Shown here: positions 6,405-32,659 of the stretch, in pieces | Layout of the letters: the number at the start of each line of letters is the position of its first letter | Position numbering within the stretch: position 1 is the stretch's first letter | Origin: Comamonadaceae bacterium | GTDB lineage: Bacteria > Pseudomonadota > Gammaproteobacteria > Burkholderiales > Burkholderiaceae_C | DNA: 32,664 nucleotides | Direction of reading: 5' to 3' | Assembly: GCA_012274225.1 (NCBI GenBank) | Contig: JAAOZX010000016.1 | Location: forward strand, 1-32,664 | Program-made: the position numbers and the translations under genes | The notes under the pieces: generated by a model | Told to the model about the DNA's origin: nothing | Databases searched by the model: none | Seen by the model: the letters and a program-made list of their open reading frames with translations, nothing else

Positions 6405-7013
6405 ATGACCCTCTTCGCCGTCGACCCGCAAGCCCTGAAGGAAACGCTGGCCAGCACGCTCGGGACATTTGCCAAGAGCATAGACCTCAAGCTCGGCGAG
6501 CTCACCGTGGTGGTGGGCGCCGCTGATTACCTGAAAGCCGCCAGGCTGTTGCGCGATTCGCCGGGCTGCCAGTTCGAGCAACTGGTCGACCTGTGCGGCG
6601 TCGACTACAGCGAATACGGCATGGGCGGCTGGGAGGGCCCGCGCTACTGCGCGGTCTCGCACCTGCTCTCGGTCAGCCTGAACCAGCGCGTGCGGCTGAA
6701 GGTGTTCGCGCCGGACGACGACATGCCGTTGCTGGATTCGCTGACCAGCCTGTGGAGCTCGGCGAACTGGTTCGAGCGCGAGGCGTTCGACCTGTATGGC
6801 GTGATCTTCGAAGGCCATCCGGACCTGCGACGCATCCTCACCGACTACGGGTTCATCGGCCATCCGTTCCGCAAGGACTTTCCGATGGAAGGCCATGTCG
6901 AGATGCGCTACGACGCCGAGCGCCGGCGCGTGATCTACCAGCCGGTGACGATCGAGCCGCGCGAGATCACGCCGCGCATCATCCGCGAAGAAAACTACGG
7001 CGGCCTGCAATAG
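6405..7013 (+). CDS. nuoC: NADH-quinone oxidoreductase subunit C
   Basis: NuoC 30-kDa signature ([39 protein letters not shown]); ATG at 6405 within the longer ORF. Confidence 0.95.
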
Positions 7014-7021
7014 GTTTGACC

Positions 7022-20846: not shown

Positions 20847-21287
20847 ATGAGAGTCCTCAACCTCCAGTGTTCGCGCGAGCACAGCTTCGAGGGCTGGTTT
20901 TCGTCCGAGGACGATTTTCAGGCCCAGCTCGCGCGCGGGCTGGTCGAATGCCCGCTGTGCGAGGACCGGGACATCCGCAAGATGCTGAGCGCGCCACACC
21001 TGAACCTGGGCGCGTCCGATCCCGGTGCAGCGCGCCGCGAGGTGATGACCAGCCCCGGGGCCGGCCTGCAGGCGGCCTGGATGAAGGCGGTGCGCGAAGT
21101 CATGGCCAACACCGAGGACGTGGGCGAGCGCTTCCCCGAGGAAGCCCGGCGCATCCACTACGGCGAAACCGAGAGCCGCGGCATCCGCGGCCAGGCGACA
21201 GCGAAAGAGACCGAGGCGCTGCTCGAGGAAGGCATCAGCGTGATGCCCTTGCCGATCCCGAAGGCTCTCAAAGAGCCCCTGCAGTAG
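20847..21287 (+). CDS. DUF1178 family protein
   Basis: MRVLNLQCSREHSFEGWFSSEDDFQAQLARGLVECPLCEDRDIRKMLSAP resembles DUF1178 proteins. Confidence 0.88.
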   Translation: MRVLNLQCSREHSFEGWFSSEDDFQAQLARGLVECPLCEDRDIRKMLSAPHLNLGASDPGAARREVMTSPGAGLQAAWMKAVREVMANTEDVGERFPEEARRIHYGETESRGIRGQATAKETEALLEEGISVMPLPIPKALKEPLQ

Positions 21288-21311
21288 TACCCAGTTCCAA
21301 ACCGGACAACC

Positions 21312-21431
21312 GGACGCAGAAGACGCAAAAGAACGCAAAAGACGCAGAAGAGACAGGAAATCATCAAATCCATTTTTGATTTTTTCTGGATTTTTTTGCG
21401 CTTTTTGCGTACTTCTGCGTCTTCTGCGTCC
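21312..21431. repeat. Inverted-repeat element copy 1: arms of GACGCARAA-like units around an AT-rich core
   Basis: Left arm GGACGCAGAAGACGCAAAAGAACGCAAAAGACGCAGAAG; right arm TTGCGCTTTTTGCGTACTTCTGCGTCTTCTGCGTCC; lies between convergent genes. Confidence 0.9.
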
Positions 21432-21453: not shown

Positions 21454-23235
21454 TCAATCCATGAACTGCAAAGCCGCCAGCCGGGCATAGACCCCGTTCG
21501 CGACCACCAGGGAATCATGGGTGCCTTGCTCCACGATCCGGCCATGGTCCAGCACCACGATGCGGTCGGCCTTTTGCACGGTGGCCAGCCGGTGCGCGAT
21601 CACCAGCGTCGTGCGGTCTCGCATCGCCGTCTCCAGCGCCGCCTGCACCATGCGCTCGCTCTCCGCGTCCAGCGCGCTGGTCGCCTCGTCCAGCAGCAGC
21701 AGCGGCGGGTTTTTCAGCATGGCACGGGCGATCGCGATGCGCTGGCGCTGGCCGCCCGACAGGCGCACGCCGCGCTCGCCCAGGAAAGTGCCATAGCCGT
21801 CCGGCAGGGCGGTGATGAAGTCGTGCGCGAAGGCCGCCTTTGCAGCCGAGATCACCTCGTCGTCGCCGGCGCCGGGCCGACCGTAGCGGATGTTCTCCAG
21901 CGCGCTGCTCGAGAACACCACGGCGTCCTGCGGCACGATGCCGATTCGCCCGCGCAGCTCGTGCAGCGCCAGTTCCCGGGTCACCGCGCCGTCCAGCACG
22001 ATGCGGCCCTGCTGTGGATCGTAAAAGCGCAGCAATAGCTGGAACACCGTGCTCTTGCCGGCGCCGCTGGGGCCCACCAGCGCGACGGTTTCCCCCGGCC
22101 GTACCGACAGGCTGAAGTCCCTCAATGCAGCCGCGGCCGGTCGCGACGGATAGTGAAAGGTAACGGCCTCGAAGGACACGGCGCTGCCGCCGGCGGTGGT
22201 GGGCGCCGTGACCGGGTTGGCCGGTGACATGACCGGCGAGCGGCTGTCCAGCAGTTCCATCAGGCGCTCGCTCGCGCCCGCCGCGCGCAGCAGGTCGCCG
22301 TACACCTCGCCCAGCACCGCCACCGCACCGGCCAGGATGATCACGTACACGATGGTCTCGCCCAGGTGGCCCGCGGTCATCGCGCCTGCCAGTACCGCCT
22401 GCGTTCCGCGGTACAGCCCCCATAGCAGCAGACCGGCCGTGCTGATGATGATGAACGCGACCAGCACCGCGCGGGCCCGGGTGCGGCGCACCCCGGTCTG
22501 GAACGCGTCCTCGGTCGCGGCGTCGAAGCGGGCGGCTTCGCGCGCCTGCGCCGTGTAGCTTTGCACCACCGGAATCGCGTTGAGCACCTCGGCGGCGATG
22601 GCGCTGGAATCGGCCACGCGGTCCTGGCTGGCACGCGACAGGCGCCGCACGCGGCGCCCGAACCACATTGTGGGCAGCACCACCAGCACGATGATCAGCA
22701 GCACCTGGGTCATCACGTACGGGTTGGTCCAGACCAGCATCGCCAGCGCACCGATGCCCATGACCGCATTGCGCAGGCCCATGCTCAACGACGAACCCAC
22801 CACCGTCTGCACCAGCGTCGTGTCGGTGGTCAGCCGCGACAGCACCTCGCCGGTCTGGGTGGTCTCGAAGAACTCCGGGCTTTGTTCGAGCACATGCGCG
22901 TACACGGCATTGCGCAGGTCGGCCGTGACTCGCTCGCCCAGCCAGCTCACCGTGTAGAAGCGCGCCGCGGAAAACAGCCCGAGCGCCACGGCCACGGCGA
23001 ACAGCTCGAGGAAGTGCGAACGCAGCGCCACCAGTTGCCGGCCCTTGTCCTCGGAGGCGAGGCCGCCGTCGATGAGTCCCCGCAGGGCGGCCGGGAACAC
23101 CAGCGTGGCCACCGCCGCAAGCACCAGAAACACGCCGGCGAGCGCAATGCCGCCGCGATACGGCCGCACGAACGGCCACAACCCCGACAGCGAGCGGGGC
23201 GACGCCTTGGCGGCGGTGACGGGAAGAGTGGACAT
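21454..23235 (-). CDS. ABC transporter, fused permease/ATPase (MsbA/lipid-or-drug exporter type)
   Basis: 594 aa from MSTLPVTAAKASP; Walker A GPSGAGKST, signature LSGGQRQRIAIARAML, Walker B LLLLDEATSALD. Confidence 0.93.
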   Translation of the reverse strand: MSTLPVTAAKASPRSLSGLWPFVRPYRGGIALAGVFLVLAAVATLVFPAALRGLIDGGLASEDKGRQLVALRSHFLELFAVAVALGLFSAARFYTVSWLGERVTADLRNAVYAHVLEQSPEFFETTQTGEVLSRLTTDTTLVQTVVGSSLSMGLRNAVMGIGALAMLVWTNPYVMTQVLLIIVLVVLPTMWFGRRVRRLSRASQDRVADSSAIAAEVLNAIPVVQSYTAQAREAARFDAATEDAFQTGVRRTRARAVLVAFIIISTAGLLLWGLYRGTQAVLAGAMTAGHLGETIVYVIILAGAVAVLGEVYGDLLRAAGASERLMELLDSRSPVMSPANPVTAPTTAGGSAVSFEAVTFHYPSRPAAAALRDFSLSVRPGETVALVGPSGAGKSTVFQLLLRFYDPQQGRIVLDGAVTRELALHELRGRIGIVPQDAVVFSSSALENIRYGRPGAGDDEVISAAKAAFAHDFITALPDGYGTFLGERGVRLSGGQRQRIAIARAMLKNPPLLLLDEATSALDAESERMVQAALETAMRDRTTLVIAHRLATVQKADRIVVLDHGRIVEQGTHDSLVVANGVYARLAALQFMD

Positions 23236-23276
23236 GGGGGCCAGTGTACTCAACGATTGCTCGCGCAAAGGAAGTC

Positions 23277-23305
23277 TTGACAATATTTGTCTAGGCAAGT
23301 ATGGT
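23277..23305 (+). promoter_or_regulatory. Sigma70-type promoter with embedded MarR-like palindrome
   Basis: TTGACA (23277-23282), 17-nt spacer, TATGGT (23300-23305); TTGTCTAGGCAA (23287-23298) is an imperfect palindrome inside the spacer. Confidence 0.65.
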
Positions 23306-23313
23306 TCCGAGCC

Positions 23314-23847
23314 ATGTCTGCACCCGCCAAGACCCGCGCCAAGGCGCCGCATCCCCGGCCGCACAGTCCGGCGCCGATCTTTTACCGGCCGGGCAACTAC
23401 CAGCCAGAAGACAGCGTCGGCTACCTCATGCGGCGCATCCTGCACACCTTCTCGCTGGCGGTGGAGCACGAGCTCGAGCCCAGCGGCCTGACCAACGCCC
23501 AGTGGGTTCCGCTGCTGAAGCTCTCCACCGGCTGTGCATCGACGGTGGCCGAGCTCGCGCGTGAGTGCCAGCTCGACGCTGGCGGCATGACGCGCCTGCT
23601 GGACCGCCTCGAGACCAAGGGCCTGGTGCGCCGGTTGCGCTCCAGCGAAGATCGCCGGGTGGTCAACCTCGAACTCACCGACCCGGGGCGCGAGGCGGCC
23701 AGGCACATTCCCGCCATCCTGTGCGGTGTGCAGAACGCGCACATGCGCGGATTCACCGTCGAAGAGTGGCAGCAGCTCAAGTTGCTGCTCGGCCGCATCC
23801 TGGACAACGCCCAGGCGATCCAGGCCGAACGCGAAGGACAACCATGA
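23314..23847 (+). CDS. MarR family transcriptional regulator
   Basis: 177 aa from MSAPAKTRAKAP; winged-helix pattern (CASTVAELARECQLDAGGMTRLLDRLETKGLVRRLRSSEDRRVVNLELTDPGREAA). Confidence 0.92.
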   Translation: MSAPAKTRAKAPHPRPHSPAPIFYRPGNYQPEDSVGYLMRRILHTFSLAVEHELEPSGLTNAQWVPLLKLSTGCASTVAELARECQLDAGGMTRLLDRLETKGLVRRLRSSEDRRVVNLELTDPGREAARHIPAILCGVQNAHMRGFTVEEWQQLKLLLGRILDNAQAIQAEREGQP

Positions 23848-30484: not shown

Positions 30485-31825
30485 TCAGGATGGCGCTTGC
30501 GCTTGCGGGTCCGTCGCCGGGAAGCGAACCTCGATCAGCAAGCCGCCCAGGCGCTGCGAGCGGTCCAGCCGCACGCTCGCGCCATGGCGTTGCGCGATGG
30601 CCTTGACGATCGCCAGGCCCAATCCGCTGCCGTTCGTGGCGCTGCCGGCCACACGGTAGAAACGGTCGAACACGCGCTCACGTTCGGCCTCGGGGATACC
30701 CGGGCCGCTGTCTTCGACCGTGATGCAAGGTAAGCCTTCCCGCACATCCAGCGAGATGTCGACCCGTCCGCCGTCCGGCGAGTACTTCACCGCGTTGTCG
30801 AGCAGGTTGCGCAGCAGCACCTGCAGGGCTTCGGGCTGGCCCCGGACCCAGGTGGTGCCCGAAGTCGCCAGGCCCAGGTCGATGCTGCGGGCCTGGGCCT
30901 GCGGCAACACGTCGCCGACGGCAAGCCGCGCCAGGTCCTGCAGTTCGACCCGTTGGGCGCGGGCCGCGCCGTGTTCGCCTTCCTCGCGCGCCAGCGCCAG
31001 CAACTGGCTCACCAGCGCTATCGCGCGCTCGATGCCGTCGTTCAGGCGGGCGACCGCCGCATCGCGGGTGCCCTCGTCGGTCGAACGGCGCAGCGCCTGC
31101 GCCTGGAGCTTCAGCGCCGTCAAGGGCGAGCGCAGTTCGTGCGCGGCGTCGGCCACGAACTGCTGCTGCGCGGCAAATGCCTGCCGCACCCGGCCGAACA
31201 GGCCATTGAGCTCGTTCACCAGCGGCAGCACTTCCTCGGGCAGCCCGGCGTCGGGCAGTGGCGACAGGTCATCGGCGGGGCGCTGCGCCACCTGCCGGCG
31301 CATGCGCTCGACCGGCGCCAGCGAGCGGTTGATAAGCCAGCCGACGGCCATCATCAACAGCGGCGCGAGCAGGGCCACCGGCAGCACGGCCCGCAAGGCC
31401 AGCGCCCGCGCGCGCGCCTGGCGCGCGTCCAGGTCCTGCGCGATCTGCACCGTGCGCTGCGGCGTCTGCAGCGAATAGACGCGGTAGCGCACGCCGCCGA
31501 CGGCGATATCGGAAAAGCCCAGTAGCGCCTGCGCCGGCAACGCGGGGCCGGTCGAGCTGAAGAGCTGGGTGCCGTCGGGCCCCCAGATCTGCACCAGGTA
31601 GTCATACGATTCGCCGTCAGCGCCCAGCGTCAGGGGCAGGCCGCCGCGCACCGAACGGGCGACCTCCTGCAGGTGCTCGTCGAACATCGCGTCGGCCTGC
31701 TGCAAGGCGGTGCGGTAGGTGGAGCTGGCCTGCAGCAGCGACGCCAGCGCAATGGCGGCCAGCACCAGCCACAGCAGGCGGCGCCGCAGCGAATGGGCCG
31801 GGGGGCTGGCCGCCGTCGGGTTCAC
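30485..31825 (-). CDS. Two-component sensor histidine kinase (QseC/PmrB-like)
   Basis: 446 aa from GTG at 31825, overlapping the response regulator stop; H-box AHELRSPLTALKLQ, N-box NLLDNAVKYSP, G-boxes EDSGPGIP and GSGLGLAIVKAI. Confidence 0.93.
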   Translation of the reverse strand: MNPTAASPPAHSLRRRLLWLVLAAIALASLLQASSTYRTALQQADAMFDEHLQEVARSVRGGLPLTLGADGESYDYLVQIWGPDGTQLFSSTGPALPAQALLGFSDIAVGGVRYRVYSLQTPQRTVQIAQDLDARQARARALALRAVLPVALLAPLLMMAVGWLINRSLAPVERMRRQVAQRPADDLSPLPDAGLPEEVLPLVNELNGLFGRVRQAFAAQQQFVADAAHELRSPLTALKLQAQALRRSTDEGTRDAAVARLNDGIERAIALVSQLLALAREEGEHGAARAQRVELQDLARLAVGDVLPQAQARSIDLGLATSGTTWVRGQPEALQVLLRNLLDNAVKYSPDGGRVDISLDVREGLPCITVEDSGPGIPEAERERVFDRFYRVAGSATNGSGLGLAIVKAIAQRHGASVRLDRSQRLGGLLIEVRFPATDPQAQAPS

Positions 31826-32481
31826 AGGCGGGGCACCACATAGCCCAGCCCGCGCACGGTCTGGATCAGTTCGCTGCCCAGCTTCTTGCGCAGGCCATGG
31901 ACATAGACCTCCACCGCGTTGCTGCTGATGTCGTCCTTCCAGCCATACAGCTTTTCCTCGAGCTGGGCCCGCGAGAACACCACCCCGGGGCGCGCCAACA
32001 GCGGCTCCAGCACCGCCCACTCGCGCGCGGACAAAGACACCGGCGCGCCGTTCACGCTGGCTTCGCGAGTGGCCGGATTGAGCGCGACGCCCTTGTGGCT
32101 GAAGACCGGCTCGGCGCGGCCGGCGCTGCGCCGGATCAGCGCCCGGATGCGGGCCAGCAGTTCGTCGGTGTCATAGGGCTTGACCACATAGTCGTCGGCG
32201 CCGGCGTCCAGGCCGGCGATGCGGTCGCCGACGGCGTCCCGCGCCGTGGCCACCAGCACCGGCATGGTCTGGTGGCGCGCGCGCAGGGCGCGCAGCACGT
32301 CCAGGCCGTCGCGCTTGGGCAGGCCCAGGTCCAGCAATACCAGGTCGTAGGATTCGCTGCGCAAGGCCGTATCGGCCATCACGCCGTCGCGCACCCAGTC
32401 GACGGCGTAGTGCTCGACGCGCAGCGCGTCGAGCACGGCTTCGCCGATCATCAAATCATCCTCGACCAGCAGGAGTCGCAT
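31822..32481 (-). CDS. OmpR-family response regulator (QseB/PmrA-like)
   Basis: MRLLLVEDDLMIGEAVLDALRVEHYAVDWVRDG...LVLLDLGLPKRDGLDVL, winged-helix C-terminal domain (NAVEVYVHGLRKKLGSELIQTVRGLGYVV). Confidence 0.96.
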   Translation of the reverse strand: MRLLLVEDDLMIGEAVLDALRVEHYAVDWVRDGVMADTALRSESYDLVLLDLGLPKRDGLDVLRALRARHQTMPVLVATARDAVGDRIAGLDAGADDYVVKPYDTDELLARIRALIRRSAGRAEPVFSHKGVALNPATREASVNGAPVSLSAREWAVLEPLLARPGVVFSRAQLEEKLYGWKDDISSNAVEVYVHGLRKKLGSELIQTVRGLGYVVPRL

Positions 32482-32534: not shown

Positions 32535-32659
32535 CCGGACGCAGAAGACGCAAAAGAGCGCAGAAGACGCAAAAAAATTAAAGACAGAATTCCTGATTTC
32601 AATCTTCGCATTCTCTTTTTGGACTTCCTTTTGCGTCCTTTTGCGTCTTCCGCGTCCGG
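32535..32659. repeat. Inverted-repeat element copy 2: arms of GACGCARAA-like units around an AT-rich core
   Basis: Left arm CCGGACGCAGAAGACGCAAAAGAGCGCAGAAGACGCAAAA; right arm CCTTTTGCGTCCTTTTGCGTCTTCCGCGTCCGG; same design as copy 1. Confidence 0.9.

Follow-up and report, generated by a model that had tools for sequence, protein, structure and literature searches.

The window, by which we mean the whole stretch of 32,664 nucleotides analysed here, carries two palindromes of about 120 bp, each arm of which consists of four CGC-RRAR units. Copy 1 lies in the gap between a DUF1178 gene and a convergent ABC transporter gene, and copy 2 is found upstream of a response regulator gene. The relevant features are the following.

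7009..7015, no strand: empty site; the congener G098 has a palindrome at the matching position (L282:1378-1526)
20847..21287, plus strand: DUF1178 gene, 24 nt before copy 1 (Pfam PF06676)
21298..21311, plus strand: outer module CCGGACAACC, short species-specific sequence that extends many copies on the outside
21312..21431, no strand: copy 1, whole candidate miniature palindromic element (cmsearch 105.5 bits; hairpin z -12)
21312..21351, plus strand: left arm of copy 1, four units in 9-10-9 register (CGC core positions)
21352..21391, no strand: AT-rich core of copy 1; in the alignment of 21 copies, cores differ in both sequence and length
21392..21431, minus strand: right arm of copy 1, four units on the minus strand (GCG positions)
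21454..23841, minus strand: ABC transporter gene, convergent, 22 nt after copy 1 (Pfam PF00664, PF00005)
31822..32481, minus strand: response regulator gene, 55 nt before copy 2, which is upstream of the gene (Pfam PF00072, PF00486)
32537..32657, no strand: copy 2, candidate miniature element whose right arm is partly decayed (cmsearch 82 bits)

In the left arm of copy 1 the CGC cores start at 21315, 21324, 21334 and 21343, which gives a spacing of 9, 10 and 9 nt, and the right arm read inward repeats this series (GCG starts at 21398, 21407, 21417 and 21426). Copy 2 has 9, 10, 9 on the left and 9, 10 followed by decay on the right. These core positions agree with the register given for both palindromes by a first-pass annotation of the window. 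With up to two mismatches, GACGCARAAGACGCA matches the window eight times, against 0.16 expected. The folding energy is -69.6 kcal/mol for copy 1 (z = -12 against shuffles) and -55.8 for copy 2 (z = -8.4). The inner inverted repeat AATCCA...TGGATT, to which attention had also been drawn, is indeed present in copy 1 but is not common to the copies, because the core varies between them.

Dispersed copies and the inverted symmetry of their arms

The source genome is a Ramlibacter-like Comamonadaceae MAG of 4.17 Mb in 518 contigs, 82% complete; the relatives of its NuoN protein belong to Comamonadaceae, the nearest being from Ramlibacter tataouinensis isolate UBA6035 (95% amino-acid identity). A search of this assembly for further copies, as the first-pass annotation had suggested, found at least 38 palindrome sites (about 40 dispersed copies). 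The idea of a copied element is borne out. The 9-10-9 register was recorded in 39 of 67 scored arms and 9-11-9 in 15, the latter predominating in sister genomes; the register is a family-wide feature but not a universal one. In an alignment of 21 copies the arms are conserved, and the cores differ in sequence and length. The same genome contains a second set of palindromes (GAACGCAGAG type, e.g. L141-L146) with CGCAGAG units. Short tandem outer modules, CCGGACTA and CGGCTGTCCGTATT, extend palindromes and differ by species (e.g. L135:2996-3036 and the right flank of L084).

The copies are tightly intergenic, many of them 10-60 nt from gene ends, and the genes beside them are unrelated to each other and mostly co-directional. 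With a simple codon-usage gene finder, 31 copies could be classified as co-directional (21), convergent (8) or divergent (2); one more lies inside a predicted gene and six are at contig edges. The placement between convergent genes proposed from the window applies to copy 1 but not to most copies.

The very stable predicted hairpin and the proximity of many copies to gene ends speak for a terminator or an RNA-stabilising hairpin selected at gene ends, and both a selected structure and a terminator had been proposed from the window. Several results make this reading extremely improbable. A terminator scan revealed neither a U-tract nor a terminator-like site at copy 1 or copy 2, the gene context is mostly co-directional, and the palindromes are distributed patchily among genomes. 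Only two double-change pairs between arms were counted, versus 6.5 in shuffles, all 500 of which were at least as high. Purine variation within units is one-sided. The middle spacer base, whose asymmetry was used to orient the copies, is in most cases A on one arm and T on the other in unit orientation, so that the stem is mismatched there in 17 of 19 copies. On these covariation counts, selection of the structure as RNA was rejected, and the lack of both compensatory changes and a U-tract leaves a selected RNA hairpin or terminator unsupported. A search of Rfam with copy 1 returned 15 matches, all below threshold (plant miRNA-type, by chance). Since the compensatory changes fall below all 500 shuffles, the inverted symmetry is best read, from sequence comparison, as a sequence array present twice rather than as a selected RNA stem; incidental effects of the palindromes on transcripts are possible. 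Among the suggestions made from the window, the protein-binding array appears to be the best fit to such arrays of a short unit.

A GxxExxY gene between the same arms

The first-pass annotation, made from the window alone, could not reveal the central point, a gene flanked by the same arms at another place in the genome. On contig C31, arms of the 9-10-9 type stand 400 bp apart and enclose a gene for a GxxExxY protein (L115:380-832:-), with 139 bits to TIGR04256 (cut-off 35) and 134.8 bits to PF13366 (cut-off 22). One neighbour of this gene is trpE, identified by Pfam as anthranilate synthase component I; the other, judging from position alone, is probably trpG. The source assembly has a single PF13366 gene, and its second match is the mirror-image end of C31: the two ends of this contig (L115, L116) mirror each other exactly, as reverse complements, over at least 3,761 bases, and GxxExxY is therefore seen twice. 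The mirror-image ends are probably an assembly artefact. GxxExxY is the sole gene type found between these arms (transposase types were searched in part), and the arm itself encodes the first ~20 residues of the predicted GxxExxY reading frame.

TIGR04256/PDDEXK_3 (PF13366) is a named family without an assigned function. The arm-enclosed protein is a clear member of it, but no link between the family and palindromes was found in the open-access literature searched. The AlphaFold2 model of the protein (pLDDT 89.1) has as its best PDB match Cas4 SSO0001 (E 8.9e-4, probability 1.00), with a TM of only about 0.5. A search of solved structures with the GxxExxY sequence gave no match, and PADLOC and PHROGs gave only weak Cas4 or CRISPR-associated matches. 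The PD-(D/E)XK catalytic residues D91 and E101-x-K103 are conserved. The protein belongs to the PD-(D/E)XK nucleases, and its predicted fold resembles that of Cas4. In one GxxExxY subfamily (L290, L303, L325, L326), D-T-K replaces the active-site E-x-K and the units end in T (CACGAAT, CGCGGAT). GxxExxY matches in L184, L154 and L162 lie within long open frames (e.g. 382, 451 and 624 codons), which may reflect fusions or read-through from adjacent frames.

Flanking inverted repeats scoring at least 12 are present at 77 of 90 GxxExxY loci, and in an earlier subset 36 of 42 loci exceeded the maximum of a shifted-flank null, 11.5. At five low-scoring loci (L192, L194, L293, L323, L328) the units are visible by eye; at L310 and L312 only one flank of the gene has a miniature palindrome, and beside the gene of L319 neither units nor a palindrome were seen. 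Arms were found in several families of Pseudomonadota, in two plasmid records from Bacteroidota and, adjoining miniature copies, in one from Gemmatimonadota; a Treponema record has a short inverted repeat only, and two contigs of a viral collection carry arm-flanked GxxExxY loci. Phyla beyond Pseudomonadota are represented by a few records, and GxxExxY occurs in 4 of 72,556 plasmid records.

Across these loci the unit is C-R-C-R-R-A-N, with G, T, A or C as its last base, and this base tracks the nuclease sequence: nearest neighbours below 80% identity agree at 0.96, versus 0.52 when permuted, and those below 70% identity agree in 94% of cases. The tracking shows that arms and gene travel as a pair and change in step, rather than binding as such, because common ancestry contributes; part of it could be due to descent of both from a shared ancestor. 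The arms of miniature copies are closest to the nuclease arms of their own genome (permutation p 0.009), with G072 as an exception.

The same 151 genomes of the family were searched for the PF13366 gene and for the palindrome. The gene was found in 10 of 10 genomes with at least five palindromes, which span nine genera, versus 3 of the 141 others (Fisher 2.3e-13, kinship ignored). Phylum-wide, among 299 genomes, it was found in 27 of 36 with palindromes versus 30 of 263 (p 2.5e-15, kinship ignored). Palindromes without PF13366 occur in 9 of 36 genomes in the phylum set and in 5 of 15 in the family set. The Y1 transposase, used as a control, was not associated with the palindromes (9 of 10 palindrome-rich genomes versus 95 of 141 others, p 0.17). 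One genome, G016, has eighteen Y1_Tnp matches, several of them identical, indicating an active IS200-like expansion beside palindromes.

Presence, absence and concerted change of copies

The Comamonadaceae loci clearly without arms are L162 (G123) and L163 (G013). In both, Asp91 is replaced by Gly and Tyr119 by Ala, and both remain at the trpE locus; a palindrome search of the two genomes gave no match. The two loci may represent one loss event.

Copies are also present or absent between species. L031, the closest relative found, lacks an element in the gap between convergent genes where copy 1 lies, and in L033 and L084 elements of other subtypes occupy it. Conversely, a palindrome stands between two neighbouring nuo-operon genes in G098 but not in the window. 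Four sites are common to the source genome and G098, and at three of them all arms differ alike (middle spacing of 11 versus 10; CGCAGAGG versus CGCAGAAG); the short outer modules at the shared sites also differ by species. A one-base change common to many dispersed copies points to copying or conversion among them, because independent mutation would hardly yield the same change in many copies. No target-site duplication was detected, the mean longest flank match being 4.47 versus 4.38-5.44 for shuffled pairs; the element boundaries are uncertain, and the comparison is weaker for it.

Replication slippage or gene conversion could itself have made and spread the palindromes, with GxxExxY merely inserting or being tolerated there. 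The units are short near-tandem repeats, and plain recombination between copies can yield concerted evolution. However, such hitchhiking predicts neither the tracking between unit and nuclease, nor the presence of the gene in all palindrome-rich genomes, nor the joint loss of catalytic residue and arms, and we regard it as rather improbable.

The palindromes might instead be chromosomal sites for a resident nuclease that serves the cell in repair, fork processing or regulation of neighbouring genes; the gene would lie between two sites for autoregulation, and copies would arise rarely and be kept for their function. This would suit the strong intergenic placement near gene ends, the great rarity of the gene on plasmids and on viral contigs (2 loci), and its occurrence as one copy in a conserved position, with trpE on one side and probably trpG on the other, at 12 Comamonadaceae loci (L150, L152-L159, L161-L163). 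We nevertheless consider it unlikely. The gene is carried by only 13 of 151 family genomes and is hence dispensable, close relatives differ in which copies they have, and the genes beside the copies are unrelated and mostly co-directional. Moreover, GxxExxY identity shows no correlation with trpE identity when the divergent L152 is omitted (rho 0.003, over a narrow range of identity). The trpE-side locus is possibly an insertion hotspot or homing site. L152, a member of a distant GxxExxY subfamily (about 46-51% identity) with CACAGAG arms, is found at this shared locus.

Known systems and a proposed nuclease-dependent element

REPIN-RAYT systems combine dispersed, intergenic, palindromic, non-autonomous copies with one partner gene that has the same repeats and is apparently not itself mobile, repeat and partner co-evolving (PMC3116915). 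The palindromes described here resemble them in being dispersed and intergenic, in having a partner gene that lies within the same repeats and is apparently not itself mobile, and in the co-evolution of repeat and partner. The partner of REPINs is, however, a Y1/HUH transposase, and here it is a PD-(D/E)XK protein; each arm is a tandem array of 3-4 units, each about 9 nt long, and lacks the GTAG tag. REPs are palindromes of 20-40 bp with an unpaired GTAG or CGTC at their foot, whereas those studied here are about 100-140 bp long and built of unit arrays; the aligned copies contain no GTAG, and their arms open with GGACGC or GAACGC and are paired throughout. REPIN-like elements or MITEs moved by a Y1 (RAYT) or another transposase of the genome would reproduce the pattern of dispersed palindromes plus partner gene (PMC3116915), but this origin is very improbable. 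The only Y1 (TIRYT-like) transposase gene of the genome (contig C7, L140:1095-1919) is bounded by 21-nt inverted repeats, AATTGGGGTCAGATTCCAATT, that are unrelated to the palindromes; Y1 presence is not associated with palindromes at the genome level, and a target-site duplication was not found. On the first two grounds Y1/RAYT was rejected as the partner.

In TIRYTs/TIRtrons a gene lies between long terminal inverted repeats that also occur dispersed, and CGTC-tagged REPs are palindromes without a known transposase (PMC3733652). The GxxExxY arms share the former arrangement, but TIRYTs encode tyrosine transposases and GxxExxY a putative nuclease. Like MITEs, the palindromes are small, non-coding and intergenic, have inverted ends and probably derive from a gene-carrying version; they differ in that no IS transposase (among the transposase types searched) and no target-site duplication was found, and in arms that are unit arrays, MITE ends being simple and 15-30 bp long. 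The lone GxxExxY gene, patchily present at the same intergenic locus in many genera, also recalls homing endonucleases, and I-Bth0305I, a PD-(D/E)XK homing endonuclease (PDB 3r3p), is a weak fold match to the GxxExxY model. By analogy, the anatomy is best read as working like REPIN-RAYT with an unrelated enzyme and repeat, and without the GTAG tag and the Y1 transposase. Homing genes are not known to have terminal repeat arrays or to seed dozens of coreless copies.

We favour the view that the palindrome is a miniature, non-autonomous derivative of a GxxExxY-nuclease element, and consider it probable. The nuclease would most likely recognise inverted arrays of the ~9-nt unit (C-R-C-R-R-A-N plus two bases), its own gene residing within the same arms at a single chromosomal position, beside trpE and probably trpG. 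It would cut at or near the arrays, host repair would then copy the arm-bounded DNA, and gene-less copies could persist, spread, or be overwritten and homogenised in trans by the nuclease. Computation established the arms common to gene and copies, the co-occurrence of the two at the genome level, the tracking between unit and nuclease, the joint loss of arms and catalytic Asp, the differing presence of copies in relatives and the concerted arm change at sites common to two species. We infer the binding and cutting of arms, the moving or converting of copies and the route by which copies are made; we know of no transposition chemistry that uses a lone PD-(D/E)XK nuclease. The nuclease gene itself has not been seen moving, because in the family it is confined to a single conserved locus.

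A broader proposal, which we hold tentatively and with slightly less than even confidence, is that such elements form an unrecognised class of bacterial selfish DNA. A lone Cas4/RecB-like PD-(D/E)XK nuclease, its gene lying between inverted arrays of the short unit it recognises, would spread and homogenise gene-less palindromic copies in trans. No transposase, recombinase or reverse transcriptase would take part, and the class would extend over several phyla. The open-access literature searched yielded no paper that links GxxExxY to palindromes or prints the units as such. The element is held to be new in kind because its enzyme class and repeat anatomy appear to match no known element family; on a cautious view, it may be a variant of the REPIN-RAYT kind.

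The association gives a testable partner and role both to GxxExxY proteins and to intergenic palindromes of CRCRRAN repeats. If the proposal is true, the element would do without a transposase, carry a nuclease of its own and have a recognition code that can be read, in which the unit changes with the enzyme, and both the specificity of the enzyme and the copying route would become directly testable.
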